From Haloplasmatales bacterium 4B (lineage in GTDB: Bacteria; Bacillota_I; Bacilli_A; Haloplasmatales; Haloplasmataceae): 44,464 bases of DNA. The notes below the pieces were generated by a model. It did no database searches and had not been told where the DNA came from. It worked only from the letters and a program-made list of their open reading frames with translations. The position numbers were made by a program, and so were the translations under genes. The stretch lies in NCBI GenBank assembly GCA_003586005.1, contig NSKI01000018.1, positions 1 through 44,464 on the forward strand. The letters are read 5' to 3'. Positions 1-18,948 of the stretch are shown here, in pieces (positions within the stretch are counted from its first letter, which is position 1; the number at the start of each line of letters is the position of its first letter).

Positions 1-44
1 TCTTTCCAGATTTATTATCTAGAATTTAGTTCCTTTTTTATATT

Positions 45-77
45 AGGGGCAATTTATTTTTTTACAGCCCCTTTTTT
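45..77 (+). terminator. Rho-independent terminator of a gene left of the window
   Basis: A 6-bp stem (45-50 with 67-72, AGGGGC/GCCCCT) is followed directly by a T run (72-77) on the plus strand. The T run is on the wrong side to serve the minus-strand transposase-like gene that ends at 76, so it most likely ends a plus-strand transcript entering from before base 1. The loop is long (16 nt), which lowers confidence. Confidence 0.5.
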
Positions 78-1536
78 ACTTCTTTTTAAATCTTACTTTA
101 ACTCTATTATCCTTTGTTATATTTATTTGAACTAGTTTTTCTAACTCATCTATGTTTTTGTTATCAATTTTTTGTGTAACGATAAATTTATTGTTATCAT
201 TATTTAGTTCAACTATGTTTAATTGACTCAACAATTCATTTACGCCCTTAAAGTCAATTTTTAACTCTCTCTCTCTAATCTTTTCATCAATAATTTTAAC
301 TATAGATAATGCGATAAAGGCAATGACATAATGTCCCTTAGTACTATTTTCTGAAAGATATTGTGATTTTTGAAAAATTGTTTTTACATCCAGAAGTTTA
401 TGAAATTGATTAATTGTTTCTAAATCTTCAAGCTTTGAACTAGAACAGATAACTCTATAACCGTCGAGAAGTGACTCTTTTTCTAAAAGTTTTTCAGATT
501 CAGTAAAATGATGAGGAATTGACAAGCGAGTTTTATTATATAATTTTTCTCTTTGTTTACTATAGGTGTAGATAGTTTTTTCAACCACAGATGCCTTTTC
601 AATTATAACTTTTTTTATTTTTTCAATAATTTTTGTTTTTTCTTTAACTTTATATTTGTAAAAATCTTTTTTATTACTTGGATTAGTAATTTTTGTATAA
701 CCTGTTTCATTGAGTAATATATTTTTAATAGTTGATAAATGACTCACTGAAACGATATAATTATCATTATTCCTTAAATAATCATAAATTTCATTGTTAT
801 AATACATTACATCATCACTAATTATTGTGACTTTATCAAATCGGTATTTTTGATTAAGATAAGCAAATTCTTTAGATAAGTCTTTAATATCAAATGAAGA
901 ACTGTCAAAAATTTTATAACAAACTGGAGTCCCGTTCTCTTTTATAACTAAACCTAAAATAACTTCAGTATTATTCTCCGATTGCTTAAAAGTTAATTTT
1001 GTCAAATAATAATATACCATACTAGGTCTACTAAATTTAAAAATTAAAGAATATAAATGTTTTTCAATTGCCTCTTGGTGATTGGCTAGAAATGCTAACG
1101 TTACTTCTAATTGGTCATTACAATAGTCAATCATTTGATAATATTTATCTTTCTTGGAATACTCTGGGTTTAAAGAGAATAAGCAATTTATAACTAATTT
1201 TAAAGTAGTATCTATTATGTCAAAGTTCATCTGAGAATTTAGTTCCGGGTCTTTATATAAAATTTTATCGAGAGATAATTTTTCAAAAATCTTTTTGTAT
1301 AAATAGTAACCATAATTAGTAATATTTGCTTCACCATTAATAGCATAAGAAGGTTTTTCTCCAATGATATACTGAAGATTTGAAATGAGGTCCTTGATGT
1401 TCTCTTTTCTATTAGATATTTTGTCACTCCTTCCAAGATTGAGAACAACTTCATGTTTGACCTTGTCACCTTTACGGATAGAATTAACAATTTGAATATA
1501 TTCAATTCCTTTTGATTTCGTTTTTTTAATCCACAT
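76..1536 (-). CDS. IS1634-type (IS4 superfamily) transposase homologue, catalytic triad degenerate
   Basis: A 486-aa protein whose first 40 residues (KxKSKGxxYxQIVxSxRxGxKVK, then NLGRSD) match the N-terminus of IS1634/IS4-superfamily transposases. The RNase H-like core is recognisable: the GLVIKENGTPVCYKIF strand (195-210), then IISDDVM (238-244), which holds the second Asp (D241), and GHYVIAFIALSI (398-409) near the C-terminus. The first catalytic Asp, expected in a VYYDxTT motif, is Tyr177. The family Glu, expected near 382-383 in a (I/V)EExFR motif, is Lys-Thr. The segment after the first Asp is also shortened, and family members are usually over 500 aa. Transposition activity is therefore unlikely. 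No terminal inverted repeats were found by eye. No Shine-Dalgarno precedes the ATG; a TATAAT (1544-1549, minus) lies only 8 bases upstream, so the mRNA may be leaderless. Confidence 0.75.
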   Translation of the reverse strand: MWIKKTKSKGIEYIQIVNSIRKGDKVKHEVVLNLGRSDKISNRKENIKDLISNLQYIIGEKPSYAINGEANITNYGYYLYKKIFEKLSLDKILYKDPELNSQMNFDIIDTTLKLVINCLFSLNPEYSKKDKYYQMIDYCNDQLEVTLAFLANHQEAIEKHLYSLIFKFSRPSMVYYYLTKLTFKQSENNTEVILGLVIKENGTPVCYKIFDSSSFDIKDLSKEFAYLNQKYRFDKVTIISDDVMYYNNEIYDYLRNNDNYIVSVSHLSTIKNILLNETGYTKITNPSNKKDFYKYKVKEKTKIIEKIKKVIIEKASVVEKTIYTYSKQREKLYNKTRLSIPHHFTESEKLLEKESLLDGYRVICSSSKLEDLETINQFHKLLDVKTIFQKSQYLSENSTKGHYVIAFIALSIVKIIDEKIRERELKIDFKGVNELLSQLNIVELNNDNNKFIVTQKIDNKNIDELEKLVQINITKDNRVKVRFKKK

Positions 1537-1543
1537 ATTACAT

Positions 1544-1572
1544 ATTATAACAAAATTTAAAAAAATTGTAAT
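1544..1572 (-). promoter_or_regulatory. Putative promoter of the transposase-like gene, near-leaderless
   Basis: On the minus strand, a TATAAT (1549 down to 1544) lies 17 bases from an ATTACA (-35 like, 4 of 6 matches, 1572 down to 1567). Transcription would start almost at the ATG at 1536, leaving no room for a ribosome binding site. Confidence 0.35.
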
Positions 1573-1629
1573 ACCATATATTTAATTATTTAAAAATATA
1601 TAACCTGATATTTTTGTGCATGTTGCCAC

Positions 1630-1660
1630 TACAAATAAAAAAAACCGTAATGCACGGTTT
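1630..1660 (-). terminator. Rho-independent terminator of the ubiD-ubiA-ubiX operon
   Basis: A 7-bp stem (1642-1648 with 1654-1660, AAACCGT/ACGGTTT) with a 5-nt loop overlaps the ubiX stop codon. On the minus strand it is followed by a T-rich tract (complement of the A run at 1634-1644). Confidence 0.7.
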
Positions 1661-2231
1661 AATTTCCATTCCAATTTTTAGTTAAATTAGAGTCAATGTC
1701 TAAATAATTTAAAATTCTTCCAATGACTTGACTTATAATGTCATCAATTGATTTAGGGAATAAGTAAAATGCTGGCACTGTGGGATAGATTATTGCTCCT
1801 GCATTTGCTAATGTAAGCATATTGTTAAGGTGAATTCCTGAAAGAGGAGCTTCGCGAAAAGCTATAATTAATTTTCGTTTTTCTTTTAATTGAACATCAC
1901 CTGATCTGATTAACAAATTATCACTTGTTCCACTAGCAATTCTCCCAATTGTACCCATACTACTTGGTAAGATAACCATACCATCAATGAAAAAAGAACC
2001 GCTTGCTATTTTATTAAACATATCATTTATGTCACATAGGTGGAGATGCTCATAATTTAATGATTGAATATAAGAGTTAAAATTTTGTTTGATTTCAAAT
2101 TCAAAAACTTTTTCACCATTACTAGTTGCTATAACATATATTTCTTGTTCATTAATTACTAATTCCTCGATCAATTTTTTAAAAAATATTGAACCACTTG
2201 CACCTGTCAATCCTACTATTATTTTTTTCAT
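1659..2231 (-). CDS. ubiX: UbiX-type flavin prenyltransferase
   Basis: A 190-aa UbiX/Pad1 family protein. These enzymes join dimethylallyl phosphate to FMN to make prenyl-FMN, the cofactor of the UbiD decarboxylase encoded two genes upstream. The N-terminal GLTGASGSI flavin-binding loop, the PSSMGTIGRIASGTSDNL segment and the AFREAPLS and YPTVPAFY segments are all family hallmarks. The ATG at 2231 is chosen because GAGGTG (2239-2244) lies at ideal spacing and the protein then begins MKKIIVGLTG; an upstream TTG at 2264 would overlap the end of ubiA and add 11 residues that the family lacks. Third gene of the minus-strand ubiD-ubiA-ubiX operon, 13 bases after ubiA, and ending in a terminator. 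Confidence 0.93.
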   Translation of the reverse strand: MKKIIVGLTGASGSIFFKKLIEELVINEQEIYVIATSNGEKVFEFEIKQNFNSYIQSLNYEHLHLCDINDMFNKIASGSFFIDGMVILPSSMGTIGRIASGTSDNLLIRSGDVQLKEKRKLIIAFREAPLSGIHLNNMLTLANAGAIIYPTVPAFYLFPKSIDDIISQVIGRILNYLDIDSNLTKNWNGN

Positions 2232-2244
2232 TTTTTTCACCTCG

Positions 2245-3162
2245 TTATATAAAGAAAATGTCAATGCATGTAAAAAGAAAGATCGTTATACTTATTAATT
2301 GATTCAATTTGTAAGATGCAATCTTCATTAAAACAGGGTTACTGGGTTTGACAATTTTATGTTCAAAGAGCAAAAATACAGTACTTAATATTATACCTAC
2401 AATGTAAATTGTGGATAACTCATCAACCCAAAAGATTAGTGATAACAATAATATAACCATTAGTAAATGAAAAATTTTGGCAATAATAAGACCACCTTTT
2501 AACCCGAATCTAGCTGGAATCGAAAAAATGTGATTTGTTTGATCAAATTCTATATCCTGTGTACCGTAAATTGTGTCAAACCCTGCATTCCATAAGGCAA
2601 CAGCGATAAATAAAATAATGGGGATAATATTCATTTTAAATAATATCATATTTTGATTAAAAGATAGGTAAAATAATTCATCTTTTACAGCCATCCATGC
2701 TCCTAATACTGCGAATGCACATGAAACACCTAAGATAAGATGGCAAAAATAAGTAAATCTTTTGGTGTATGGATAAACAGTAAAAAATAATATTGGAATA
2801 AAGGATGAGTAAAAACACAATAAGTTTATATTATAAGCTGCATAAAAGTATACGATATAAGCTAGTATTGTTATTAATAGGGCTTCAATACTTTTAAGTT
2901 TGCCACTAGGTATATGCCTATTTTTGGTTCTTGGGTTATTAGAATCAATAAATCTATCAGCGTAGCGGTTAAAAGCATTAGCTCCAGTTCTTGCGGCAAC
3001 TAGGGCTATTAATCCATAAATTATAATTTCTCTACGTGGCATACCATTCGCGGCAATGAACATAGTTATTAGGGCAAACGGAAGGGAAAATAAGGTATGA
3101 CTAAACATAACCAATTCTCCATATGATATTATTCTTTTAAGCAATTTCTTCATCAAAACCAT
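2245..3162 (-). CDS. ubiA: UbiA-family aromatic prenyltransferase (MqnP-like)
   Basis: A 305-aa integral membrane prenyltransferase with about eight to nine hydrophobic helices. The first metal-binding motif is N65-x3-D69-x3-D73, followed by NPRTKNR; the second is QDIEFD (202-207) with D203 and D207. The sequence IYGTQDIEFDQ resembles the putative 4-hydroxybenzoate prenyltransferase subfamily that includes MqnP of the futalosine menaquinone route, so the substrate is more likely a naphthoate than 4-hydroxybenzoate; this is inference. It starts 26 bases inside the 3' end of ubiD, an overlap that suggests translational coupling, with a weak AAGTGG site ahead of the ATG at 3162. An internal ATG at 3153 is an alternative start. 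Confidence 0.9.
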   Translation of the reverse strand: MVLMKKLLKRIISYGELVMFSHTLFSLPFALITMFIAANGMPRREIIIYGLIALVAARTGANAFNRYADRFIDSNNPRTKNRHIPSGKLKSIEALLITILAYIVYFYAAYNINLLCFYSSFIPILFFTVYPYTKRFTYFCHLILGVSCAFAVLGAWMAVKDELFYLSFNQNMILFKMNIIPIILFIAVALWNAGFDTIYGTQDIEFDQTNHIFSIPARFGLKGGLIIAKIFHLLMVILLLSLIFWVDELSTIYIVGIILSTVFLLFEHKIVKPSNPVLMKIASYKLNQLISITIFLFTCIDIFFI

Positions 3163-5002
3163 ATTTTAACCACTTTTCATCTACTAATTTTCTTATGTCT
3201 TCATCCATAACAATATCGTTTGGCCAATTCCTATTGCCATTTTCTATCGGCAGTTTTTTTGTAGCATCAACTGTAACAACGGTAAATCGAAAATTGTTGT
3301 TAAAGACATCTGAGAAATACAAATCTCTTTTGGCATCAATGTTGTTAAAGAATCTCCAAAAAAGTTGCCAGTCTTTTGTTATATCCGTGAATTGATCATT
3401 GATAGTAATCCATTTAATAAATTTTAAAGAATTATGTTTACGCAAAAAATCATTTAAATTTATAATATCATCTTTTGTAGTTTTAATTATTTTTATAATT
3501 AATAATTTATTATAAATATCATCTTGTGGAAGTCTAATATCAGCAACAAAACTAAAATGTGTTTGTAGTTCATTTAATATAGATTCTTTTTTTAGATTTT
3601 CAGGAAATAGATATTCTTTTTCTAAAGAGAAATTATAATTTGATTCTTCATGTAACTTCTTTGTAGCATCAATTCCTAATTTAGAACCAAAGTAAGCTTT
3701 TTTTGACGAGTGATCTAGAGCATCAAGTGGACCTTCATTAATTACAATATCTTCATATAGATTCACATTATTAATAATTGTCCAAAAAATATCTTGGTAG
3801 TTTCGAATATCCTTATTTTCATCAACTGCACAAATCAACTTTTGATTCATCATTTGACCAGTTCCCCAAAAAGAGTTCATAATCTTATGAGCATGTTTAG
3901 GGAAATGTTTTTTTATTGATGTAATAGCACAATTATGAAAAACACCCTCAAAAGGCATATGTAAATCAACAATTTCAGGTACAGTCATTTGTAATAGTGG
4001 TAAAAATATTACCTCGCTAGCTAGTGCTAAATAACAGTCTTCCATAGGAGGAATTCCAACAATTGTTGCATGAAAAACAGGCTTTTTCTTGCGAGTAATT
4101 TTTTCTATATGAAAGGTTGGATACATATCAGGTAGTGAATAATAACCGGTATGATCGCCAAATGGACCTTCTAGTCTTAAATCTTCGTCGATATCAACAT
4201 AACCTTCAAATATGAATTCAGCATTAGCAGGAACGTATAAATCATTAGTAATACATTTAACAATTGGTAATGAGCGTTTACGTAAAAAAGATGCAAACAT
4301 CATCTCATCTATCATTTTTGGAAGTGGTGCTGTGGCAGCATATACAGTTGCTGGGTCAGCACCAACAACGACACTTACAGGCATCTTGGTTATTCCCAGT
4401 TTCCGATATTTATCATATATTTCTCTTCCATCCTTATGCCAGTGCCAATGCATTCCAGTTGTTTTGTTATTGTAGACCTGCATCCGATACATCCCCATGT
4501 TTTGTTGTTTTGTTTCAGGGTCTTTAGTAATTACTAAAGGTAATGTAAAGAAACGACCACCATCTTCTGGCCAGCATTTTAGTATCGGAATTAAATCTAA
4601 ATTAGGTTCCTCAATGACCTCTTGACATGCGCCCTTATTTTTTTTGCGTGGAAAAGAAAAATAAAGTCTAGATAATTTTGGTAAAGCTTTAATTTGTTTA
4701 GAAAGAGTTTTGTAATTTGATAAATCCATAAATGCTTTAATATCTCTAGAAATATGTTTAAGATTATCTACCTCTAGTGCTAATGACATTCTTTCTAAAG
4801 ACCCAAAAGCATTAATAAGTAAAGGATATGGTGAGTCTTTTACATGATTGAATAGCAAGGCCATATTTTGGTGATTTGATTTCATAATTCGATTAGCGAT
4901 TTCGGTAATTTCTAAGTCTTTATTTACTTCTTCCTCGATTTCAATTAATAGATTATTGGATTTAAGTTTATGAATAAATTCTTGTAAATCTTTATAAGCC
5001 AT
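3137..5002 (-). CDS. ubiD: UbiD-family prenyl-FMN-dependent decarboxylase (menaquinone type, MqnL-like)
   Basis: A 621-aa UbiD family decarboxylase, longer than classical UbiD (about 490 aa) and nearer the menaquinone-type decarboxylases. MGMYRMQV (169-176) with R173 and EGPFGDHTGYYS (278-289) are the prenyl-FMN and active-site segments. HWHWHKDG (185-192) is also typical. It would remove the ring carboxylate after or before prenylation by the downstream UbiA, using the cofactor made by UbiX. The ATG at 5002 has a strong GAGGAGG site (5008-5014). First gene of the minus-strand operon; its promoter region is shared with the divergent ABC importer starting at 5109. No mqnA-D or men genes are in the window, so the rest of the quinone pathway is not visible here. 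Confidence 0.92.
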   Translation of the reverse strand: MAYKDLQEFIHKLKSNNLLIEIEEEVNKDLEITEIANRIMKSNHQNMALLFNHVKDSPYPLLINAFGSLERMSLALEVDNLKHISRDIKAFMDLSNYKTLSKQIKALPKLSRLYFSFPRKKNKGACQEVIEEPNLDLIPILKCWPEDGGRFFTLPLVITKDPETKQQNMGMYRMQVYNNKTTGMHWHWHKDGREIYDKYRKLGITKMPVSVVVGADPATVYAATAPLPKMIDEMMFASFLRKRSLPIVKCITNDLYVPANAEFIFEGYVDIDEDLRLEGPFGDHTGYYSLPDMYPTFHIEKITRKKKPVFHATIVGIPPMEDCYLALASEVIFLPLLQMTVPEIVDLHMPFEGVFHNCAITSIKKHFPKHAHKIMNSFWGTGQMMNQKLICAVDENKDIRNYQDIFWTIINNVNLYEDIVINEGPLDALDHSSKKAYFGSKLGIDATKKLHEESNYNFSLEKEYLFPENLKKESILNELQTHFSFVADIRLPQDDIYNKLLIIKIIKTTKDDIINLNDFLRKHNSLKFIKWITINDQFTDITKDWQLFWRFFNNIDAKRDLYFSDVFNNNFRFTVVTVDATKKLPIENGNRNWPNDIVMDEDIRKLVDEKWLKYGFDEEIA

Positions 5003-5026
5003 GTATATCCTCCTCTATATAATGTG

Positions 5027-5056
5027 ATTATAACATAAAAAATATTTTGTTATAAA
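5027..5056 (-). promoter_or_regulatory. Putative promoter of ubiD-ubiA-ubiX
   Basis: Minus-strand TATAAT at 5032-5027, with a weak TTTATA -35 at 5056-5051 (18-bp spacer). It lies within the inverted repeat 5028-5055. Confidence 0.45.
5028..5055. repeat. Inverted repeat between divergent ubiD and ABC importer promoters
   Basis: TTATAACA (5028-5035) and TGTTATAA (5048-5055) are perfect 8-bp inverted arms with a 12-bp gap. They cover the minus-strand -10 and reach the -35 area of the plus-strand promoter, so a bound regulator could control both units. The arms are AT-rich, so chance occurrence is possible. Confidence 0.4.
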
Positions 5057-5081
5057 CATTTTTAGTAGTTTGTGATATAAT
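5053..5081 (+). promoter_or_regulatory. Putative promoter of the ABC importer operon
   Basis: TATAAT at 5076-5081 with a 4-of-6 -35 match (TAAACA, 5053-5058; 17-bp spacer), 28 bases before the ATG at 5109. Confidence 0.45.
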
Positions 5082-5108
5082 TCAAAATGAAAGAAAGGGA
5101 GTGGTAAA

Positions 5109-6053
5109 ATGAAAAAAGTTACTATATTACTAATTATGACAAGCATTTTAATCGTTTTAACAGGTTGTAAAAAAGAATGCGTTAGCAATAATAATAAAAT
5201 TAGAATAGGATTAATAAAAGGGTTATTATCAGTACCCTATTACTTTGCAGAGGATGAAAAAATTTTTGAAAAATTTGGTATTGAAGTTCAATTAGAATTA
5301 TATAATAGTGCAAATGACCGGGATTCAGCATTTAAAGGAAATAAAATTGATGCGGTAAGTACAGATTTAGTAGCAGCATTATTATATATGAATGATAAAA
5401 AAGATATCGTTATTACTTCTCAGACTGAAGAAGAATTCCGACTAGTTCAAAATAAAAATCTTTTGTACAATTCTCTCTCAGAAATCAAACATCATCCAGA
5501 AAAGGTCAACATTGGTGTTTCTGAAAATACAGTAATAGAATATTTAGCAGATACAATAATGAAAAAAAATGAAATCTCAAATTATAATAAAACCTTTATT
5601 CCTAAAGTTCCTGATAGATATGACATACTTAGAAAAGGTGATATTGATATGGCCATAATGCCAGAACCATTTCCATCATTGATAGTTGATAACGGTGGAA
5701 AAGAACTATGGAAAAGTTCAGATGAGAATTTGTATGCAACTTGCTTTGTTGTAGAAAAACAATTTGCTGAGTCTAATTATAAAGTAATAAAAAATCTAAA
5801 TTTATCAATTAATGAAGCAATTGAAAAAATGATGAGCCTAGAATTTGCTCTTTATCAAGACATAGTAATTGAACATGATTTGTTAAACAAAGAAGATTTA
5901 GAAGTAGTAAGTGAGCAAATATTTCATCCTTTAGTTCTTCCGAATAAAGAAACTTTTACCGATGTTTTAGATTGGACTAAAGAAAAAGGGTTAATTAACA
6001 ATGATTATGACTTGAATGACTTATTATTTCCATATATGCTAGAAAATTTATAG
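5109..6053 (+). CDS. ABC importer substrate-binding lipoprotein (NMT1/SsuA-like)
   Basis: A 314-aa lipoprotein with a signal peptide of about 19 residues ending in the lipobox LTGC (lipidated Cys20). The mature part begins with KIRIGLIKGLLSVPYYFA, followed by a segment on an ageing FGIEVQLELY pattern and GNKIDAVSTDLVAAL, the layout of NMT1/SsuA/ThiY periplasmic-binding proteins for sulfonates, nitrate or thiamine-type pyrimidines. MPEPFPSLI (around 184-192) is the hinge segment common in this family. It starts a plus-strand operon with an ATPase (11 bases downstream) and a permease, and is divergent from ubiD. A strong GGGAGTGG site precedes the ATG. The ligand cannot be read from the sequence; the neighbouring quinone genes suggest an aromatic precursor, but a pyrimidine or sulfonate is equally possible. 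Confidence 0.82.
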   Translation: MKKVTILLIMTSILIVLTGCKKECVSNNNKIRIGLIKGLLSVPYYFAEDEKIFEKFGIEVQLELYNSANDRDSAFKGNKIDAVSTDLVAALLYMNDKKDIVITSQTEEEFRLVQNKNLLYNSLSEIKHHPEKVNIGVSENTVIEYLADTIMKKNEISNYNKTFIPKVPDRYDILRKGDIDMAIMPEPFPSLIVDNGGKELWKSSDENLYATCFVVEKQFAESNYKVIKNLNLSINEAIEKMMSLEFALYQDIVIEHDLLNKEDLEVVSEQIFHPLVLPNKETFTDVLDWTKEKGLINNDYDLNDLLFPYMLENL

Positions 6054-6064
6054 GTGTTGATTAA

Positions 6065-6790
6065 ATGATTGAGATAAAAAATTTATCTTTTGGTTATAAA
6101 TCTAATGAATTGTTATTGAAAAACCTTAACCTAATTATTTCTAAAGAACAAAAAATAAGCATAATTGGCAGGTCTGGATGTGGAAAAACAACTTTGCTGA
6201 TGCTTTTAGCAGGAATAATAAGTGATTATGAAGGCCGAATAATTATCAATAATGAGAATTTAACTGAAATGAGAAGCGAAACTGGGGTTGTTTTTCAAAA
6301 TGGTGGTTTATTTCCATGGAAGACTGTTTATGGAAATTTAGCGCTGGGATTAAAAGCTAAAAAAGTAGATAGAATAGAAATTGATAGAAAAATAAGTAGG
6401 GTTTTAAAAGATCTAGGTATTGATAATTTGAAAAATAAATATCTAAAAGAGCTGAGTGGTGGTCAAAAACAAAGAGTCGCAATTGCGCGTACTTTAGTTC
6501 TTGACTCTGATATATTACTTTTGGATGAACCATCAGCATCACTTGACGCCTTCACAAAAGATAATTTTCAAAATATATTATTAAAGATTTATAACAAATA
6601 TCAGCTTTGTTCAGTTTTGGTAACACATGATATTGAGGAAGCGGTTTTGTTGGGGCAAAATATTGTTGTAATGAAGGATGGCAAGTTAGAAAAAATAATT
6701 GATAATGAGGAATTGTTTGGGAAAAAAGATATAAAAAACCAAATTTCATTTTATGAAAGATGTATTAATCTTAGAAAGACTTTGGAGTAG
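6065..6790 (+). CDS. ABC importer ATP-binding protein
   Basis: A 241-aa nucleotide-binding subunit of the SsuB/TauB/ThiZ type. Walker A GRSGCGKTT (35-43), Q-loop VFQ (76-78), signature LSGGQKQR (130-137), Walker B LLLDEP (151-156) and switch His188 in VTHDIEEA are all intact, so it should hydrolyse ATP. The phrase GLFPWKT after the Q-loop is typical of nitrate/sulfonate/taurine importers. It sits between the lipoprotein and permease genes; the next gene begins 5 bases after its stop, so the three are almost certainly one transporter. Confidence 0.93.
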   Translation: MIEIKNLSFGYKSNELLLKNLNLIISKEQKISIIGRSGCGKTTLLMLLAGIISDYEGRIIINNENLTEMRSETGVVFQNGGLFPWKTVYGNLALGLKAKKVDRIEIDRKISRVLKDLGIDNLKNKYLKELSGGQKQRVAIARTLVLDSDILLLDEPSASLDAFTKDNFQNILLKIYNKYQLCSVLVTHDIEEAVLLGQNIVVMKDGKLEKIIDNEELFGKKDIKNQISFYERCINLRKTLE

Positions 6791-6795
6791 AGAAT

Positions 6796-7509
6796 ATGAA
6801 ACATGTACTTGGAATATCAATTGTATTAATTATGTGGATTTTATTTGCATATCTATTTCAAAACACTATTCCCTTACCGAATGAAGTCTTTTTAAATTTT
6901 GTAAAGATTTTTGGTAAGCAATTATTTACTCCGACTCTTCAATCGATATCACTGTTATTTTCTGGTTTGTTTTTTTCAATTATTATTGGGGTACATTTGG
7001 GAATATATATGGGATTATCTAAAAGAGGAAATAAGTTATTAGATTCAGTTATATATTCAATTTATCCAATACCTAAATCTGCTCTTTTACAAGTATTAAT
7101 AATCATTTTTACATCAATGTTTTGGATGAAATCAACATTAATTTTTATAATCGTAGTTTTTCCTGTAATTATAACAGTCAAAGATGCAATTAGGGTAATA
7201 CCCAAAGAAGTTTTCTATCACGCTAAAAGCCTTTCATTGAACAAAAAGCAAATGTATAAAGATTTAATTATCCCAGCTATTTTACCTAATCTATTTACAA
7301 CATTAAGAATTAGCATCGGAAATTCTATTGCTGTGTTATATTTAAGTGAAACTAGAGGTATTGGGAGTGGTTTAGGATATTTTATTGATAGTAGTGTTGT
7401 TTCAAATAATTTGAACATGTTTACTGGAATTTTTGTATTAAGTTTAATAGGCTATATTCTATTTATACTTATTGACTTAATCGAGTATAAATTTTGTAAA
7501 TGGGTTTAA
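6796..7509 (+). CDS. ABC importer permease (BPD_transp_1 fold)
   Basis: A 237-aa permease with about six hydrophobic segments. The cytoplasmic EAA-type loop is seen around VFYHAKSLSLNKKQMYKDLIIPAILP (near 136-161), which docks the ATPase. Length and layout fit SsuC/TauC/ThiX permeases, expected to act as a homodimer with two copies of the preceding ATPase. Its ribosome site (GGAG, 6784-6787) lies within the end of the ATPase gene. Last gene of the operon; no strong terminator follows. Confidence 0.88.
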   Translation: MKHVLGISIVLIMWILFAYLFQNTIPLPNEVFLNFVKIFGKQLFTPTLQSISLLFSGLFFSIIIGVHLGIYMGLSKRGNKLLDSVIYSIYPIPKSALLQVLIIIFTSMFWMKSTLIFIIVVFPVIITVKDAIRVIPKEVFYHAKSLSLNKKQMYKDLIIPAILPNLFTTLRISIGNSIAVLYLSETRGIGSGLGYFIDSSVVSNNLNMFTGIFVLSLIGYILFILIDLIEYKFCKWV

Positions 7510-7558
7510 AACTATTTAATTATAATATATAATAAAGAAAGAAAAGGAAGGTGATTAT

Positions 7559-8278
7559 GTGCTTAAAATTAATAATTTGAGTAAAAGTTATGGACTGAAA
7601 AAAGCAGTTAATAAAATTAGTTTTGAAGTAAATCAAGGCGAAATTTTTGGATTTTTGGGACCAAATGGGGCAGGAAAAACTACAACAATTAAGATGATAG
7701 TTGGGCTACTTAAGCCTGATGAAGGGAAAATTTTAATTAATGGATTTGACAATCAAATTAACATTTTAGATGCTAAAGGCCAGTTTTGTTATGTTCCTGA
7801 TAATCCTGAGGTATTTGAAAAAATAACAGGTTACGATTATCTTCAATTTATATGTGATGTTTTCAAGATACCAAATAAAGAAAGAGAAGAACGAATAAAT
7901 TATTACCTAGAAAAATTATTATTAAAAAATGATATCAATAGCTATATTTCTGGTTACTCTCATGGAATGAAACAAAAAATAGTGTTAATTGGTTCATTGA
8001 TTGTAAATCCTAAAATATTAATTTTTGATGAACCTATGGTAGGGCTTGACCCAAAGGCGCAACATACAGTTAAGGAATTACTTGCACAACATTGTAGTAA
8101 AGGAAACAGCGTCTTTTTTTCTACCCATGTACTAGAAGTAGCTGAAAAGGTCTGTGATCGAGTAGCAATAATAAATAATGGTGAAATAATAGCTCTTGGA
8201 ACACTTGATGAAATTCGAAAAAGTATTGGCAAAGATGAATCACTTGAAAATATCTTTTTGGAGTTGACAGAAAAATGA
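7559..8278 (+). CDS. ABC-2 type exporter ATP-binding protein
   Basis: A 239-aa ATPase of the CcmA/YxlF-like multidrug or YtrB type: Walker A GPNGAGKTT (34-42), a signature variant YSHGMKQK (133-140) in place of LSGGQ, Walker B IFDEP (155-159), and STHVLE with the switch His. The YSxGMKQ form is normal for this exporter group. The GTG at 7559 is the start because AAGGAAGG (7544-7551) is 7 bases before it; an ATG at 7557 overlaps it but is out of frame. The gene overlaps the next by 4 bases (ATGA), so the ATPase and the membrane protein are translationally coupled. Confidence 0.9.
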   Translation: MLKINNLSKSYGLKKAVNKISFEVNQGEIFGFLGPNGAGKTTTIKMIVGLLKPDEGKILINGFDNQINILDAKGQFCYVPDNPEVFEKITGYDYLQFICDVFKIPNKEREERINYYLEKLLLKNDINSYISGYSHGMKQKIVLIGSLIVNPKILIFDEPMVGLDPKAQHTVKELLAQHCSKGNSVFFSTHVLEVAEKVCDRVAIINNGEIIALGTLDEIRKSIGKDESLENIFLELTEK

Positions 8279-9975
8279 CAGATTTTTTAACAACTTTTAG
8301 ATTTCTATTAAAACAGAACCTATCATTTCATTATTTTTTTAACCGTTTGAAAAACGACAAAAAATATCGAAATATGTCAATCATAATAATTTTAGTTTTT
8401 TTATTTTGTATTCCTAGTTATGCTGTATTTATAGGGCTATTTAGAGAATTATTCATTAGTTTTCAAACTGCACACTTAGGATCACTATATTTGGTAATGG
8501 CTATAATATTGTCGGTATTCCTAATCATCTTTTTTAGTTTTTTCCAAATTATATCATACTTTTACTTTTCGGATGATGTAAAGATACTTACACCGATGCC
8601 AATAAAACCAAGCCACTATTTACTCAGTAAATTTTTTGTAATTTATATCTGGGAACTTTTAATTAGTATGTTTACAGTATTACCATTTTTTATTATATAT
8701 GCAGTATATGAAAACATATATTTCTATCAATGGATAATGATGATTATTAGTTTTGTATTACTACCAATAATACCACTTGTGGTAATTGCGATAATAACTG
8801 TCGTATTGATGAGCTTAACAAATATTTTTAAGAGTAAAGATGCATTAAGGATGGCTTCCTACATATTATTATTTGTATCATTAGTGTTTTTTCAGTATAA
8901 AATATATGACGTTTTATTAACTATGCCTGAAGATCCAGAAAAACAATTGGAATTCGGGCAAAATTTAGTTAATAATAGCACTTTCTTCTTAGAAAAATTC
9001 TCTGCATATTATCCAATTACAAAATTTATTGAATTTGCAGTTTCAGGAAGTTTTTTTGAATCATTATTGAGTACATCTATTTTTATATTACTTTGCATTG
9101 GTTTTGTATACTTATTATCGATTGTATTACAATCAATATTTATGAAGAGTTATTTAAAGGAACAAAACAATAGAACAACGAAAAAGAAGAAAATAAGAAC
9201 AAACAAAAAAACTGGTGTGGGAAATGTAGGACTTTCAATAGCTAAAATTGATTTTTTAACTTTACTTAGGGTTCCTATTTACGCATTTAATACGTTGTCG
9301 GTAGTAATCTTGATACCGGTTTTATTAATTGTATTTTCAAATTTAATGTCTGGTGGCAATGGAGAGATTGAAGAATTGCTTAATTTATACAAAAACAATA
9401 GAGATATTTTCTGGTTATCAGTAGCTTTAATCCTTACGATATTTTCTATTATGAACCCGATTGCATCAACTACATTTTCTCGAGAAGGAAAAACAAATTG
9501 GATAATGAGATCTTTACCTATAAGCGCCAAAGATCACATCTGGGGAAGACTACTTACTCCATTAATTACGCAAGTTGTTTTTATGATCGTAATGTTAATT
9601 ATAATAATCTTTACTTTAGCTCAAAAGGGTAGTAATATTTCTACTGACATAGTTTATGGGATAATCACCTTTTTGTTAGCATTTATATCCTCATTACCAT
9701 TATTGTTTATTTCAATTATTATAGATTTAAAAAGACCGATGTTGAAATGGGAAAACCCACAGCAACCAGTTAAACAAAATATGAATGTCTTAATTGCAAT
9801 TGTGGTAGGAATAATATATGGGACACTAATGTATCTATTGTATACTTTGCTTAAGCAATTCCTTGAAATCGATTTAATAATAATAATATTTTTTATAGTA
9901 AATATTAGTTTAGCATACTTTGCTTATAATATCTTGTACAGTAAATTTGAAAAGAGTTTAGTTGTAATGGATTAA
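8275..9975 (+). CDS. ABC-2 type exporter membrane protein, large double-size permease
   Basis: A 566-aa protein with roughly twelve hydrophobic helices in two halves, split by a basic, Lys-rich stretch at about 300-314. This is the size of duplicated ABC-2 permeases that pair with one ATPase gene, here the overlapping gene at 7559-8278. The segment FSREGKTNWIMRSLPISAKDHIWGRLL (about 401-427) is typical of this group. The substrate is unknown. ATG start at 8275 inside the ATGA overlap. Confidence 0.82.
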   Translation: MTDFLTTFRFLLKQNLSFHYFFNRLKNDKKYRNMSIIIILVFLFCIPSYAVFIGLFRELFISFQTAHLGSLYLVMAIILSVFLIIFFSFFQIISYFYFSDDVKILTPMPIKPSHYLLSKFFVIYIWELLISMFTVLPFFIIYAVYENIYFYQWIMMIISFVLLPIIPLVVIAIITVVLMSLTNIFKSKDALRMASYILLFVSLVFFQYKIYDVLLTMPEDPEKQLEFGQNLVNNSTFFLEKFSAYYPITKFIEFAVSGSFFESLLSTSIFILLCIGFVYLLSIVLQSIFMKSYLKEQNNRTTKKKKIRTNKKTGVGNVGLSIAKIDFLTLLRVPIYAFNTLSVVILIPVLLIVFSNLMSGGNGEIEELLNLYKNNRDIFWLSVALILTIFSIMNPIASTTFSREGKTNWIMRSLPISAKDHIWGRLLTPLITQVVFMIVMLIIIIFTLAQKGSNISTDIVYGIITFLLAFISSLPLLFISIIIDLKRPMLKWENPQQPVKQNMNVLIAIVVGIIYGTLMYLLYTLLKQFLEIDLIIIIFFIVNISLAYFAYNILYSKFEKSLVVMD

Positions 9976-9999
9976 CAAAAAAAATTAGAGGTGAATTTT

Positions 10000-11436
10000 A
10001 TGATATCGTTAATTAATGACGTAAATTTTAAAGATGAAGTTAGAACAATTTTTGTCGGAGTGGAAGAAAATAATAATCCCATGGAATTGGAGAAAATAAT
10101 TAATCAAGTAAAAGCGAAAAAAGATATATTTAAATTTGGAGAAATTACAACTGTTTACCCTCTTGAAGATTTTAAGTCTAACCGTATAGTATTTGTTGGA
10201 TTAGGAAAAAAAGAGAATTATAATTTATTAGAAATTGAAACTCTTTTTTCTAAAATAGGGAAAGATATTCAAGAGGAATCTATTATTTATCTTGACTCAT
10301 TTAGTATTTTACATCAAGATATTCATTATTTATGTGAAAAATTGATAGAAACAATTAAATTAGTTAAATACCAATTTAATAATTATAAAAAAGATAAAAA
10401 TGATGTTAAGGAAATGGATATTACTGTATTTAGTAAATTTGATGTTGCAAAAGATATTGAATTTGGTGCTATAAATGCTGAAGGTACTAATAATGCTAGA
10501 AGCTTGGTCAATGAACCAAGAAATAAAATGACGCCATCTATTTTAGCACAGTATGCTAAAACCTTGGCTGAAGAATTTAAACTAGATTATAAAATATATA
10601 ATAAAAGTGAAATCGAAACTTTGGGTATGGGAGCATTTCTAGCTGTTAATCAAGGATCAATTGAAGAAGCAAAATTAATTCATATTAAATATCGAAATGC
10701 TAAACATGAGAATGTAACAGCACTAGTTGGAAAAGGGTTAACTTATGATTCAGGTGGCTATTCAATAAAACCTAAAAATGGTATGGCAGGAATGAAAGGC
10801 GATATGGGTGGAGCAGCTTCTGTTTTAGGAGCATTTGAAATTATTTGTCGTAAAGCCTTAAAAGTTAATGTAGATGTTATTATTGCTGCTACAGAGAACT
10901 TAATTAATGCTGAAGCTATCGTACCAGATGATGTTGTTGTTACAATGAATGGTAAAACTATCGAAATATTAAATACAGATGCAGAAGGTCGATTAACTTT
11001 AGTTGATGCTGTAACATTTGCTAAGCGGAATCATGCAGCGGAAATAATAGATGTTGCAACATTAACAGGTGGGGTAGTAACAGCCCTTGGAAAAGAAATT
11101 ACCGGAGCATTTACAAATAATAGATCTTTGATAGAAAAAATAAAAGCCTCAGCTGAGAAAACTGGAGAAATGATATGGGAACTGCCTGTTGACCAATTTA
11201 GAAAACGTTGTAAAAAAAGTAACGTAGCAGACTACAATAACTCACCTGGTCGTGATGGACATGCATCGTTCGCTGCAGCACTTATCGCAGAATTTGTGGA
11301 AGATACTCCATGGGTTCATCTAGATATCGCAGGAACATCCGCAAAAGAATCAGCATATTTATTGGGACCAGCTGGTGGTACTGGAGTAATGGTTAGAACT
11401 TTAGCTAATTATTTTGAAAAACAAAATAAAAAATGA
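10000..11436 (+). CDS. pepA: Leucyl aminopeptidase (M17)
   Basis: A 478-aa cytosolic M17 metallo-aminopeptidase that removes N-terminal residues, mainly Leu, from peptides. The two-metal site is complete: K245 and D250 (VGKGLTYDSGG), D268 (MKGDMGGAA), D327 and E329 in the family signature NTDAEGRL (326-333), with catalytic R331. The N-terminal domain (about 1-150) is divergent, as usual. The ATG at 10000 is chosen since GAGGTG (9988-9993) is its ribosome site; a GTG at 9991 lies inside that site. The gene follows the ABC exporter by 24 bases and ends in a terminator shared with the convergent HIT gene. Confidence 0.95.
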   Translation: MISLINDVNFKDEVRTIFVGVEENNNPMELEKIINQVKAKKDIFKFGEITTVYPLEDFKSNRIVFVGLGKKENYNLLEIETLFSKIGKDIQEESIIYLDSFSILHQDIHYLCEKLIETIKLVKYQFNNYKKDKNDVKEMDITVFSKFDVAKDIEFGAINAEGTNNARSLVNEPRNKMTPSILAQYAKTLAEEFKLDYKIYNKSEIETLGMGAFLAVNQGSIEEAKLIHIKYRNAKHENVTALVGKGLTYDSGGYSIKPKNGMAGMKGDMGGAASVLGAFEIICRKALKVNVDVIIAATENLINAEAIVPDDVVVTMNGKTIEILNTDAEGRLTLVDAVTFAKRNHAAEIIDVATLTGGVVTALGKEITGAFTNNRSLIEKIKASAEKTGEMIWELPVDQFRKRCKKSNVADYNNSPGRDGHASFAAALIAEFVEDTPWVHLDIAGTSAKESAYLLGPAGGTGVMVRTLANYFEKQNKK

Positions 11437-11452
11437 CCTAGGTCATTTTTTT
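11430..11452. terminator. Bidirectional terminator between pepA and the HIT gene
   Basis: A perfect inverted repeat, AAAATGAC/GTCATTTT (11430-11437 with 11442-11449) with a 4-nt loop, overlaps the pepA stop codon and is flanked by A and T runs on both sides. It suits termination from both converging genes. Confidence 0.75.
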
Positions 11453-11453
11453 C

Positions 11454-11873
11454 TTAAATATTATTTTTGATTTCATTTGCGATAAATTCAAGGTCTTCCT
11501 TAGAATATTTATCCATGTGATTTGTGTAGATTACCCTTAATCCATCGTCTTCATTATACCTCGGTATTAAGTGGACATGATAATGAAACACTGTTTGCCC
11601 AGCAGTTTCTCCGTTGTTATTAATAATATTCATACCTTTGGCATTAAAAGCCTTCATAATCGCCCTTGCTACTTTAGGAATATGTTTATAAATATTTGTA
11701 ATTGTTTCGGGAGTTAAATCAAAAATATTTTCAAAATGTTCTTTAGGTATAACGAGTGTGTGGCCTTTTGTAGTTTGAGAAATATCTAGAAAAACTAAAA
11801 TGTCATCATCTTCATATAGTTTTACACAAGGTATATCACCATTACTAATTTTACAAAATAGACAATTCTTCAT
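11454..11873 (-). CDS. HIT family nucleotide-binding protein (Hit/HinT type)
   Basis: A 139-aa histidine-triad protein. The triad H97-Y-H99-V-H101-L is intact, and C4/C7 in CLFCKI form half of the zinc site typical of the Hit/HinT branch. These enzymes hydrolyse nucleoside phosphoramidates or dinucleoside polyphosphates; the exact substrate is not set by sequence. A strong AGGAGG site is just upstream of the ATG. Monocistronic on the minus strand, with its promoter facing that of the Gx transporter gene. Confidence 0.93.
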   Translation of the reverse strand: MKNCLFCKISNGDIPCVKLYEDDDILVFLDISQTTKGHTLVIPKEHFENIFDLTPETITNIYKHIPKVARAIMKAFNAKGMNIINNNGETAGQTVFHYHVHLIPRYNEDDGLRVIYTNHMDKYSKEDLEFIANEIKNNI

Positions 11874-11936
11874 TATATCCTCCTATAAAATGGAATTTCA
11901 TCTATTATTATAACAAATATTATTTTTAATTTAAAT

Positions 11937-11946
11937 ATGCTATAAT
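11937..11946 (+). promoter_or_regulatory. Extended -10 promoter for the Gx transporter/ung unit
   Basis: TGC-TATAAT (extended -10; TATAAT at 11941-11946) lies 34 bases before the ATG at 11980. No good -35 is seen, as is usual with extended -10 sites. Confidence 0.5.
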
Positions 11947-11979
11947 AAATTTGGAACTAAATGAGAAAGGATGGGAGCT

Positions 11980-12549
11980 ATGGGTAGTCGTAAAAAGACA
12001 GAAAAATTAGTGTTTATAGCTCTTTTAGTAGCTTTAAGTGTTGTTTTAGGTATAATTGATAATTTGTTATCATCATTCGCCCCAGCACAAGGTGTTAGAA
12101 TTGGTTTAGCTAATATAGTAATATTAACTGGTCTTTATTATTTGAAATTTAAGGAATCATTATTATTAATTATTTTAAAATCTATATTAACTGGTATTAT
12201 TATAGGACAAGTAGTAGCTTTTTCTATTGGCTTCTTAGGAACTATCCTTAGTTTTATAACTATGTACTTATTATTGAGATATACTAAAAAATTCGTTAGC
12301 TTATCTGGTATAAGTGTAGCCGGAAGTATCGCCCATAATATTGGGCAAGTTATAATGTTGATTATATATTACGGAATAACTGTTGCGTTTAATCTATTCT
12401 GGCTAATTCCAGTCGGTGTTATTGCAGGATTTTTTGTAGGGTATGTAGTTTCTGTTTTAAGAGTTTATTTAGATAAAGGCCAAGTTTTTAAATCAATAAC
12501 TACTAAAGATGAGCCCTATATAATTAATCAAATTATAAATGAAAAGTGA
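11980..12549 (+). CDS. Gx transporter / heptaprenyl diphosphate synthase component I-like membrane protein
   Basis: A 189-aa, five-to-six-helix membrane protein of the Hpre_diP_synt_I (Gx transporter) family. The conserved APAQGVRIGLANIV segment, ILKSILTGIIIG, and GSIAHNIGQV are visible. Members were first annotated as component I of heptaprenyl diphosphate synthase, but they look like ECF-type S components, so a transport role is more likely. The ATG at 11980 is preferred, with AAAGGA eight bases upstream; an ATG three codons earlier abuts that site. The stop codon overlaps the start of ung, which couples the two genes. Confidence 0.8.
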   Translation: MGSRKKTEKLVFIALLVALSVVLGIIDNLLSSFAPAQGVRIGLANIVILTGLYYLKFKESLLLIILKSILTGIIIGQVVAFSIGFLGTILSFITMYLLLRYTKKFVSLSGISVAGSIAHNIGQVIMLIIYYGITVAFNLFWLIPVGVIAGFFVGYVVSVLRVYLDKGQVFKSITTKDEPYIINQIINEK

Positions 12550-13217
12550 TGATTTATATGTTTAGTAATGATTGGAATGATTTACTACAAACTGAGGTGA
12601 AAAAACAATATTTTATTCAATTAATGGAAAAATTGCATCAAGAATATTTAAAATATCAAATCTATCCTGATTTTAAAAATATCTTTAATGCAATGAAATT
12701 AACATCATTTAGAGATGTATTAGTGGTAATTATTGGCCAAGATCCTTATCATCAAGTAAATCAATCACACGGCCTTTGTTTTTCTGTCGAAAAAGAACAA
12801 AAAATCCCTAAATCACTACATAATATATTTACAGAATTGGTGGCCGATATTGGTATAAATTATCCTAAACATGGTAATTTAACACATTGGGCTAACCAAG
12901 GTGTATTATTACTTAATACTGTATTATCAGTACGAGATAGTGAACCTGGTTCTCACCGTAATATAGGATGGGAAATTTTTACAGATCAAATTATAAATTT
13001 GCTAAATAGTAAAAAAACACCTATAGTATATTTGTTGTGGGGTAATGATGCAAAAAAGAAGGAAAAACTAATAACCAATAAAAAACATTTAATACTAAAG
13101 TCAGTGCATCCATCACCTTTATCAGCTCATAGAGGTTTTTTTGGATGTAAGCATTTTTCAAAAGCAAATACTTTTTTATATGAAAATAATTTAAAAGCAA
13201 TTGAATGGCAAATTTGA
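12549..13217 (+). CDS. ung: Uracil-DNA glycosylase, family 1
   Basis: A 222-aa family 1 uracil-DNA glycosylase that removes uracil from DNA as the first step of base excision repair. The water-activating loop GQDPYH (63-68, catalytic D65) and the HPSPLSAHRGFFG minor-groove loop (His187) are intact, as is GLCFSV for uracil stacking. The ATG at 12549 overlaps the upstream stop (TGATG); an ATG at 12558 is an alternative, and neither has a strong ribosome site. Ends in a clear terminator. Confidence 0.95.
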   Translation: MIYMFSNDWNDLLQTEVKKQYFIQLMEKLHQEYLKYQIYPDFKNIFNAMKLTSFRDVLVVIIGQDPYHQVNQSHGLCFSVEKEQKIPKSLHNIFTELVADIGINYPKHGNLTHWANQGVLLLNTVLSVRDSEPGSHRNIGWEIFTDQIINLLNSKKTPIVYLLWGNDAKKKEKLITNKKHLILKSVHPSPLSAHRGFFGCKHFSKANTFLYENNLKAIEWQI

Positions 13218-13226
13218 TATAAATAA

Positions 13227-13258
13227 AAGTAGGCAATATGTATGCCTACTTATTTTTT
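13227..13258 (+). terminator. Rho-independent terminator of ung
   Basis: A 9-bp stem AAGTAGGCA/TGCCTACTT (13227-13235 with 13243-13251), a 7-nt loop, then a T run on the plus strand. The A-rich left flank may also let it end the converging gerQ transcript. Confidence 0.85.
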
Positions 13259-13775
13259 ACTTATTTTGTTCTGGTTTATTCTCTTTTTTACGTAATTGCG
13301 TATTTGGGGTTATTGGTGGAACTATACCGGTTAAACTAGAATTATTAAATGGATATTCATAGCTAATTTCTTCGTCAAATGTAATATAATTTAAATAGAT
13401 TGATAATAATAGGTATCTCATATCTGTTGCAGGATCTCTTAAAATTATGTGGTCTTTACCAGCAGCTTCAATTATACCTTTAAACACTTTGCTTCCCCAT
13501 TGAGAGTTTTCAAAATTCATGTAAACTGTTGCCATTTTCCCTTTATTTAATCTTAAAATATTTTCAATATAAGATTCTTCAAACCGGACTAATCCTGGTT
13601 GTACGCCTGGAAAACCAGTTGGAATTGTAGGAGTTTGTGGAAACGCAGGTGTTTGATATCCTTGTTGTGGATAAGCTGGTACTTGGTATCCTTGCTGCGG
13701 GTAACCAAAACTTGAAGTAGGTGTCATTTGTGGATTTTCCATAGATGGAAAGGTTGGAGTCGTATAAGAACTCAT
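13257..13775 (-). CDS. gerQ: Spore coat protein GerQ
   Basis: A 172-aa protein. The N-terminal third is low-complexity, rich in Pro, Gln and Tyr, with two copies of a YPQQGYQxPA(Y/F) repeat near 25-44. The C-terminal domain (about 60-150: SYIENILRLNKGK, YMNFENSQWGSKVFKGIIEAAGKDHIILRDP) is the GerQ domain. In B. subtilis, GerQ is an inner coat protein cross-linked by transglutaminase Tgl and needed to place the cortex hydrolase CwlJ. Here cwlJ is directly upstream, 18 bases away, in the same minus-strand unit, as in Bacillus. The start has a strong AAGGAGG site. Confidence 0.92.
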   Translation of the reverse strand: MSSYTTPTFPSMENPQMTPTSSFGYPQQGYQVPAYPQQGYQTPAFPQTPTIPTGFPGVQPGLVRFEESYIENILRLNKGKMATVYMNFENSQWGSKVFKGIIEAAGKDHIILRDPATDMRYLLLSIYLNYITFDEEISYEYPFNNSSLTGIVPPITPNTQLRKKENKPEQNK

Positions 13776-13793
13776 AAATTCCTCCTTAATTAT

Positions 13794-14213
13794 TTAATAA
13801 CAATTCTCTGATGGTAAGGGTTGATAGAAACAGTGGCTTTTATATCTACCTATGTTCCATTGCCCAAACCATTGTGCTCTACAACTTTGACCAAATGGAT
13901 TGTAGAACCATAGCGAAGTTGTTGCCGGAACAAATCTCTCGCCTTTGATAACTCGTCTTGCTAAACGTCTTTCGATTTCTCTTGCTGGCTGATAAAAATA
14001 TGATTTTTGTGTTGCTTCAAATCCTCCAGGAGATTGATAAACCATATCAGATACACTTCGTATATCTTTAAAATCTAGACAATTAGCTCTAACTCGATTT
14101 ACACCGACATTTCCAACTAATAACATGCCTAACTGACCATCACTTTCTGCTTCTGCTCGCAACAGTCTAGCTAGTAAATCTATATCTTTTGTTGTATGTG
14201 GGATAACAGCCAA
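13794..14213 (-). CDS. cwlJ: Spore cortex-lytic enzyme CwlJ
   Basis: A 139-aa SleB/CwlJ family hydrolase without signal peptide or peptidoglycan-binding domain, the CwlJ layout. LLARLLRAEAESDG (14-27 or so) holds the expected catalytic Glu (E21), followed by GMLLVGNVGVNRVRANC, YQSPGGFEA and the C-terminal RYKSHCFYQP. CwlJ degrades spore cortex peptidoglycan in germination and depends on GerQ, encoded next. The TTG at 14213 is chosen: GAGGTG (14220-14225) lies six bases before it, and the product then begins MAVI, as in Bacillus CwlJ. A GTG at 14222 lies inside the ribosome site and is rejected. Confidence 0.92.
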   Translation of the reverse strand: MAVIPHTTKDIDLLARLLRAEAESDGQLGMLLVGNVGVNRVRANCLDFKDIRSVSDMVYQSPGGFEATQKSYFYQPAREIERRLARRVIKGERFVPATTSLWFYNPFGQSCRAQWFGQWNIGRYKSHCFYQPLPSENCY

Positions 14214-14297
14214 AAACCTCACCTCATATAAAATATATGAAAATTATAATAAAAGTTTCTTTATTAACTTAAAAAAGACTTAAAAACATGGAAAATT

Positions 14298-14325
14298 TTG
14301 ACATTAAAGCATATTTATTTATAAT
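14298..14325 (+). promoter_or_regulatory. Sigma-A-type promoter of the HD phosphohydrolase gene
   Basis: Perfect TTGACA (14298-14303) and TATAAT (14320-14325) with a 16-bp spacer, about 80 bases before the ATG at 14412. It is the best sigma-A consensus match in the window. Confidence 0.75.
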
Positions 14326-14411
14326 AGAGTTTAGATTTCGTTAATAATAGATATTAAAACTAACTAAATTTTGGTAAAATAATAATAGGAGAAAAAGGAA
14401 GTTGGCTTGAG

Positions 14412-15713: not shown

Positions 15714-15763
15714 TTAGAAAAAAAAGTCTGAAGATTGTGGTAAAATAAAAAAAGGTGATTAAA

Positions 15764-16324
15764 GTGAGAATTAAAGAAATAATTGTTGTAGAAGGTAAAG
15801 CAGATACAAGAAGGTTAAAAGAAGTTTTTAATAATATTGATACTATAGAAACAAGAGGAAGTGCTATTAACAAAAGGACTTTAGAGTTAATAGCAGAAGC
15901 ACAAAAAAAACGTGGTGTAATTATTTTTACTGACCCTGATTACCAAGGGAAAAGAATAAGAAATATTATTAATGATGCAGTACCTGATTGTAAAAATGCA
16001 TATATCATGAAAGAAAAAGCTATTGATTATAAATTGCATAAAGTAGGTGTTGAACATTGTACACGTGAAGATTTGATAGAATCTTTATCAAATATTACAG
16101 AGGTAAGCGATAGTGAATCGAAAATAACATTTTTAGACTTATATAATTTAAAACTTATTGGATGTAAAAATAGCAATGAAATTAGAGATTTTATAAGTGA
16201 GAAGTTGCATTTAGGAAATAATAATGCTAAACAATTTATAAAAAAAATAAAAATGTTTAATATATCTTTAGAAACAATAAAACAATTAAGTGAAGAATAT
16301 GAAAAAAAACAAGTGGTGAAGTAA
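15764..16324 (+). CDS. rnmV: Ribonuclease M5
   Basis: A 186-aa Toprim-domain nuclease that matures the 5S rRNA ends in Bacilli. The Toprim Glu is E10 in VVEGKAD, and the Asp motif is FTDPDYQGKR (about 56-65). The GSAINKRT segment is also characteristic. The GTG at 15764 is the start: AAAGGTGAT lies just before it and the product length equals the Bacillus enzyme; a GTG at 15755 falls inside that ribosome site. Its stop overlaps the ATG of ksgA by one base. The rnmV-ksgA order is conserved across Bacillota. Confidence 0.93.
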   Translation: MRIKEIIVVEGKADTRRLKEVFNNIDTIETRGSAINKRTLELIAEAQKKRGVIIFTDPDYQGKRIRNIINDAVPDCKNAYIMKEKAIDYKLHKVGVEHCTREDLIESLSNITEVSDSESKITFLDLYNLKLIGCKNSNEIRDFISEKLHLGNNNAKQFIKKIKMFNISLETIKQLSEEYEKKQVVK

Positions 16325-17196: not shown

Positions 17197-17232
17197 GTTA
17201 ATGCAAATCATTATTACTTAAAAAATATTTGT

Positions 17233-17260: not shown

Positions 17261-17275
17261 TTATTAGGTGATAAT

Positions 17276-18055: not shown

Positions 18056-18075
18056 TCTTTATTTTGGAGGAAAAA

Positions 18076-18924: not shown

Positions 18925-18948
18925 TTTGTAATAATTTGTTGTTTTTTG

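Follow-up and report, generated by a model that had tools for sequence, protein, structure and literature searches.

Why would a bacterium keep genes for the last steps of quinone synthesis back to back with an importer, in a genome where the early steps that were sought are missing? The question is raised by a locus of Haloplasmatales bacterium 4B (Haloplasmataceae; genome G000), at positions 1659–7509 of the 44,464-nucleotide stretch of contig NSKI01000018.1 that was analysed as a whole and is called the window here (G000 contig 14 in our numbering). On the minus strand lie, in one operon, a UbiD-family decarboxylase of the MqnL (menaquinone) type (3137..5002), a UbiA-family polyprenyltransferase in the putative MqnP role (2245..3162) and a UbiX-family flavin prenyltransferase in the putative MqnM role (1659..2264); facing away from them on the plus strand are a substrate-binding lipoprotein (SBP; 5109..6053), an ATP-binding cassette (ABC) ATPase (6065..6790) and an ABC permease (6796..7509), the last two assigned by family models. 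A preliminary description of this DNA had placed the six genes correctly, with 106 bases between the two operons (5003..5108), and had proposed that the cell imports a naphthoate or another aromatic acid and finishes it to menaquinone. We consider it probable that the locus is a salvage module for a quinone precursor, in which the importer takes up 1,4-dihydroxy-6-naphthoate, its predicted ligand, and the minus-strand enzymes finish it, probably to demethylmenaquinone. What is directly observed in its favour is the genes and their families, the absence of the early genes tested, the co-occurrence of importer and UbiD, and the order of the genes across genomes.

The minus-strand operon resembles the late module of the futalosine pathway, whose enzymes MqnP, MqnL and MqnM were predicted in 2016 (PMC4746308), in that it joins UbiA, UbiD and UbiX family genes. 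UbiD passes the menaquinone decarboxylase (MqnL) model TIGR03701 with 604.7 bits (cutoff 495.9) and fails the model for 4-hydroxy-3-polyprenylbenzoate decarboxylase (348 bits, cutoff 788). UbiA passes the general ubiA_other model TIGR01475 (278 bits, cutoff 180.8), and UbiX passes both NF004685 (193.7 bits, cutoff 188) and TIGR00421 (179.2 bits, cutoff 108.9); the listed start of the ubiX ORF is the TTG at 2264, and its homologues begin at an internal ATG near 2231. Similarity to solved UbiD, UbiA and UbiX proteins spans most of each domain.

The early genes that were sought are missing from the genome. G000 is a draft of 2.26 Mb in 77 contigs, listed as 100% complete. As the preliminary description had it, no mqn or men gene was recognised near the locus, among window ORFs read by eye and in some cases scanned with models, and the genome-wide search for MqnA/D, MqnE, MenD and MenB agreed: in G000 there was no match to MqnA/MqnD (PF02621), MqnE (TIGR03700) or MenD (TIGR00173), and the best MenB (TIGR01929) match stayed below cutoff (154.1 of 342.7 bits). 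That match was rejected as MenB, being an enoyl-CoA-hydratase-type protein within a cluster. As a side observation, the surrounding cluster reads by eye, without model confirmation, as one for lysine fermentation. Across the genomes examined, MqnE and MenD were each over cutoff in none of 12 and MenB in none of 15. As far as these four tests reach, G000 holds neither a complete futalosine nor a complete Men pathway. The model for the methyltransferase MenG/UbiE was over cutoff in 0/17 genomes (best in G000 43.5 bits, cutoff 158.35), and the product is for this reason probably demethylmenaquinone and not menaquinone; of the proposed finishing to menaquinone, the finishing genes stand and the end product is probably another.

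The binding protein and this UbiD go together across genomes. Among 395 genomes of the class, with TIGR03701 matches weaker than E 1e-120 excluded from the listing, eight hold a UbiD over the TIGR03701 cutoff: the Haloplasmataceae G000, G005, G006 and G007, and four members of a second family, f11 (G028, G050, G058 and G082). Completeness is listed at 98–100% in six of the eight, and none carries a real MqnA/D by PF02621; the weak PF02621 matches in G050 (25.1 bits) and in G017 (27.1 bits, cutoff 26) were rejected as such, both being ABC lipoproteins. A profile of the SBP (A4), built from seven of these eight genomes, finds the SBP subfamily in all eight at E below 1e-70 and in five of the 387 other class genomes at E below 1e-45 (G002, G004, G039, G344 and G047), with two further genomes, G066 and G311, at about 1e-16. 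The importer subfamily thus accompanies UbiD in 8/8 class-sample genomes where the early genes tested are missing, as would be expected from the preliminary description (Fisher's p 9e-14, with the profile built from the positives). From a further, phylum-level sample of 392 genomes, which overlaps the first, comes one more SBP genome, G525; a scan of named genomes gave three loci, too few for statistics.

All four Haloplasmataceae genomes with UbiD share the divergent layout. In G028 and G050 the genes run on one strand in the order ubiD-ubiA-ubiX-SBP-ATPase-permease-PAC_bac, and no other gene is common to these loci and window positions 1–22000; the importer inside the ubiDAX operon is therefore evidence independent of Haloplasmataceae synteny. 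Prenyl-flavin chaperone is another annotation given to PAC_bac proteins. In G082 (L033:4830-19263, L105:966-8317) ubiX, ubiA, ubiD and the SBP gene lie within 8.3 kb, with murJ between ubiD and the SBP gene; the 19.9 kb read there held neither an ATPase nor a permease of the importer. The importer of G039 lies divergently to a MenA-like protein of the UbiA family. The models that fit this protein best are those of 1,4-dihydroxy-2-naphthoate polyprenyltransferases, but it passes none of them (at best 112.1 of 277); TIGR03701 is not among the matches listed for this genome, and MenB is not over cutoff.

The lipoprotein, ATPase and permease, encoded in one operon, make up a type I ABC importer, and the SBP, our candidate naphthoate binder, has a lipobox (LTGC, residues 17–20). 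In Pfam the SBP matches NMT1_2 alone and not PF02621 (MqnA/MqnD); against SsuA_fam, the sulfonate binders, it stays at 49.8 bits, below the cutoff of 163.5, and a single-sequence search of the PDB gave no match. A full quinone pathway elsewhere together with close homology to a pyrimidine or sulfonate binder, the combination that the preliminary description had named as counter-evidence, was thus not found. A structure model of the SBP (mean pLDDT 70.9, from an input alignment of three sequences) was compared with the PDB only, through VIA-align 2, and has an NMT1/SsuA-like fold; its best solved neighbours, at Z 18–21, include a Staphylococcus aureus ligand-binding component, CmpBCD, Thi5, NrtA, SsuA and PqqT, and it compares with MqnA (2nxo) at Z 14.9 and with MqnD (2czl) at Z 14.5. 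The proposed kinship to MqnA and MqnD holds at the level of the fold and, given the missing PF02621 match, goes no closer; as a lipoprotein, the window SBP was rejected as an MqnA/D-like enzyme. The modelled fold does not reveal the ligand. Arg71 and Arg170 of the SBP are invariant and may serve to anchor a carboxylate.

Profiles were also made from each family separately. A hidden Markov model (HMM) from three f11 SBPs scores the four ubi-linked Haloplasmataceae SBPs at 144 to 176 bits, and one from the four Haloplasmataceae SBPs scores the three from f11 at 116 to 191 bits; the taurine-like SBP of G000 reaches 24.5 and 44.8 bits under these two single-family HMMs. Judged by these scores, the ubi-linked SBPs of both families belong to one subfamily.

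The salvage reading would work as follows. The soluble naphthoate captured by the lipoprotein would be a product of other microbes, most likely 1,4-dihydroxy-6-naphthoate; the ATPase–permease pair would import it at the expense of ATP. By family, UbiA would then attach a polyprenyl tail to the naphthoate in the manner of MqnP, UbiX would make prenyl-FMN for UbiD, and UbiD, in the role of MqnL, would use this cofactor to remove the carboxylate. With no recognisable methyltransferase, the membrane product would probably be demethylmenaquinone.

A number of observations weigh against precursor salvage. UbiA stays below the three MqnP models, which are of the exception type (MqnP_DT 236.3/430, MqnP_Cj_Hp 197.3/375 and MqnP_SCO4491 188.5/420 bits). 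The absence of early genes from G000 covers MqnA/D, MqnE, MenD and MenB, which are part of the two pathways. No quinone-using enzyme was identified in G000 with FMN_bind as a marker, which failed in this use: its only matches there are a small lipoprotein and the G subunit belonging to an Rnf-like cluster, whose presence does not speak for quinone use, and those in f11 are large FMN/FAD reductases. Once the seven genomes that supplied the profile are removed, the co-occurrence shrinks to 1/1 versus 5/387 (p 0.015). G058 has ubiD and ubiX together and its two SBPs elsewhere, not adjacent to ubiD. The flanks of the Haloplasmataceae locus are conserved as well, with an ABC exporter throughout, joined in G005 and G006 by genes for an aminopeptidase, a HIT protein and a member of PF07456, so that the linkage in this family, taken alone, could be inherited synteny. 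The SBP subfamily also occurs without a TIGR03701 UbiD, in G002, G004, G039, G344, G047 and G525, and it is wider than the ubi-linked set, because the f11 HMM scores such SBPs equally high (G525 176.6, G344 151 and 164, G002 159.1 and G039 158.2 bits).

The surroundings of these further SBPs are mixed. No quinone gene lies within the 19.9 kb read around the SBP operon of G002, nor near the SBP of G525 in 11 kb; the SBP of G047 is on a contig of 3.3 kb. In G344 (L055:8510-11872) two tandem SBPs, 51% identical, go with a single ATPase–permease pair, and ATP synthase genes follow closely downstream. In G004 (L012:4985-14867, at a contig end) the SBP directly follows genes that look by eye xanthine-dehydrogenase-like and deaminase-like, and its ligand may be linked to purines. 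These five genomes make it less likely that all members of the subfamily bind the same ligand. In an SBP tree of 17 rows, the six sequences from Haloplasmataceae group as a single clade (100/100), in which the unlinked SBPs of G002 and G004 pair with the ubi-linked one of G007 (94/93), and G039 pairs with G525 (98/98); the pairing with G007 means either that ubiDAX was lost in G002 and G004 with the importer kept, or that the importer has a further use.

Of the alternatives, the one that survives best grants ubiDAX its part in quinone synthesis and has the importer carry an unrelated substrate, such as a pyrimidine, a purine, a sulfonate or a flavin, with the Haloplasmataceae linkage inherited. 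The conserved flanks, the UbiD-less members of the subfamily, with the one beside the purine-type genes of G004 in particular, and the many ligands of the fold neighbours all speak for it. Yet in G028 and G050 the importer sits within the ubiDAX operon without any shared synteny, its SBP is kept in 8/8 UbiD genomes, and a MenA-like gene lies opposite it in G039; import of a flavin, moreover, would fail to explain G039, because a MenA-type enzyme, unlike UbiX, needs no FMN. We regard this explanation as unlikely.

Less likely again, and in our view improbable, is that the cell makes the naphthoate itself, through an unrecognised early pathway or strongly diverged enzymes, with the importer incidental or engaged in exchanging intermediates. 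PMC4746308 does predict non-orthologous replacements in quinone pathways, the gene search covered MqnA/D and MqnE but not MqnC of the futalosine route, and G000 is a draft in many contigs; but one and the same set of genomes, from two families, fails the tests for MqnA/D, MqnE, MenB and MenD alike, and most of the UbiD genomes are nearly complete by the listing given above. Finally, hydroxybenzoates are also substrates of the UbiA and UbiD families, and the UbiA of the window falls in the general ubiA_other model, but that the operon prenylates and decarboxylates another imported aromatic acid, such as 4-hydroxybenzoate, to another prenylated product is very improbable, with UbiD more than 100 bits above the menaquinone cutoff and far below that of the 4-hydroxy-3-polyprenylbenzoate model, and with the MenA-like link in G039 pointing to naphthoates.

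Precursor salvage may also be one case of something broader. We tentatively entertain, with less confidence than salvage at the Haloplasmataceae locus, a dedicated ABC importer family for quinone head-group precursors, which would take up 1,4-dihydroxy-6-naphthoate where MqnP/L/M-type genes are present and 1,4-dihydroxy-2-naphthoate where a MenA-like enzyme is, with demethylmenaquinone feeding flavin-based extracellular electron transfer in some relatives. The last idea comes from G082, because there the module adjoins genes for a HepT-like synthase, a PF07456 protein, an FMN-binding lipoprotein weakly similar to PplA and an NDH-2-like oxidoreductase (by eye; Pfam PF07992). An FMN/FAD flavocytochrome-type reductase is found there too, the genome has 11 FMN_bind matches, and we take the cluster to be like flavin-based extracellular electron transfer loci.

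Other pairings of such genes were seen in passing. G017, from the same genus as G028 and G050 but without their UbiD, has a MenA-like UbiA-family gene followed 9 bases on by one for a 281-residue SBP-like protein without a lipobox (L112:13269-15053), which scores a weak 38.2 bits against the Haloplasmataceae SBP HMM. In G050 (L111:7583-10335) a second MenA-like gene, whose first aspartate motif looks degenerate by eye, is divergent from another SBP–permease pair. In a plasmid collection the window SBP had no match; for the SBP of G050 the best E-value fell on a Prevotella replicon (25% identity, 8e-19), which we do not count as evidence. This replicon, from Prevotella sp. oral taxon 299, carries the match as a lone SBP (L110:11899-12810; 114 bits with the f11 HMM) about 4.6 kb after a cluster read as Na+-NQR, and menA was not recognised in the 24.7 kb fetched. 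A need of Prevotella melaninogenica for menadione is reported in PMC5738691, and a connection with the lone SBP is worth checking.

In the gap (5003..5108) the minus-strand promoter (5056–5027) and the plus-strand promoter (5053–5081) have overlapping -35 boxes in the window, and by alignment the two divergent extended -10 elements are kept in 4/4 Haloplasmataceae gaps; coordinated expression of ubiDAX and importer is plausible. The inverted repeat that the preliminary description had pointed out between the promoters (TTATAACA, 12 bases, TGTTATAA) is present, but is no sign of special regulation: an arm of equal length arose in 73/500 mononucleotide shuffles of the gap, and comparison of the gaps shows it to be absent from G005, G006 and G007. 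In G000 it arises from the two overlapping promoter elements, and as an operator, being neither rare in shuffles nor conserved, it was ruled out. No Rfam family was found at gathering thresholds in window positions 1–20000. Further along the plus strand, the syntenic PF07456 protein (heptaprenyl diphosphate synthase component I family; 11971..12549) has a possible link to prenyl supply, which the salvage reading does not need. Directly downstream of ubiX, at 76–1536, lies an IS1634-type transposase ORF (86.4 bits, cutoff 100).

What would be new here is the combination: enzyme families and an importer class that are both familiar, joined into a salvage module with the late steps only. In PMC4746308 no genome without the Mqn pathway is reported to have mqnPLM, and menaquinone-precursor importers are still to be predicted and validated; the genome of the window differs from the late futalosine module described there in having no MqnA/D or MqnE and in pairing its finishing genes with an importer. 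The importer shares families and fold with type I ABC importers that have SsuA/NMT1-type lipoproteins (for sulfonate, nitrate, HMP or PQQ), but its SBP, below the SsuA_fam cutoff and without a PDB match, forms its own subfamily; with the MqnA and MqnD enzymes the SBP shares the periplasmic-binding-protein fold, and it differs from them as a lipoprotein of an ABC operon without a PF02621 match.

Another close parallel is the cross-feeding of 1,4-dihydroxy-2-naphthoate auxotrophs, Lactobacillus plantarum (PMC10746273) and gut isolates (PMC5738691), which likewise finish a neighbour's precursor without the early genes. Those auxotrophs use 1,4-dihydroxy-2-naphthoate, MenA-type enzymes and unknown transporters, whereas the window has futalosine-type finishing genes and a candidate transporter. 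Unidentified uptake routes are expected in L. plantarum (PMC10746273), and in 2017 transporters for quinone precursors had not been described (PMC5738691); our own literature search, which lacked most subscription journals, found no quinone-precursor importer described. Among fermenting bacteria, many rely on their neighbours because they have no early quinone genes. For these, the locus represents a concrete candidate importer that is cheap to test, and it gives a gene signature by which to recognise genomes with the late futalosine steps alone. If the salvage reading is true, 1,4-dihydroxy-6-naphthoate, besides 1,4-dihydroxy-2-naphthoate, would pass between microbes.

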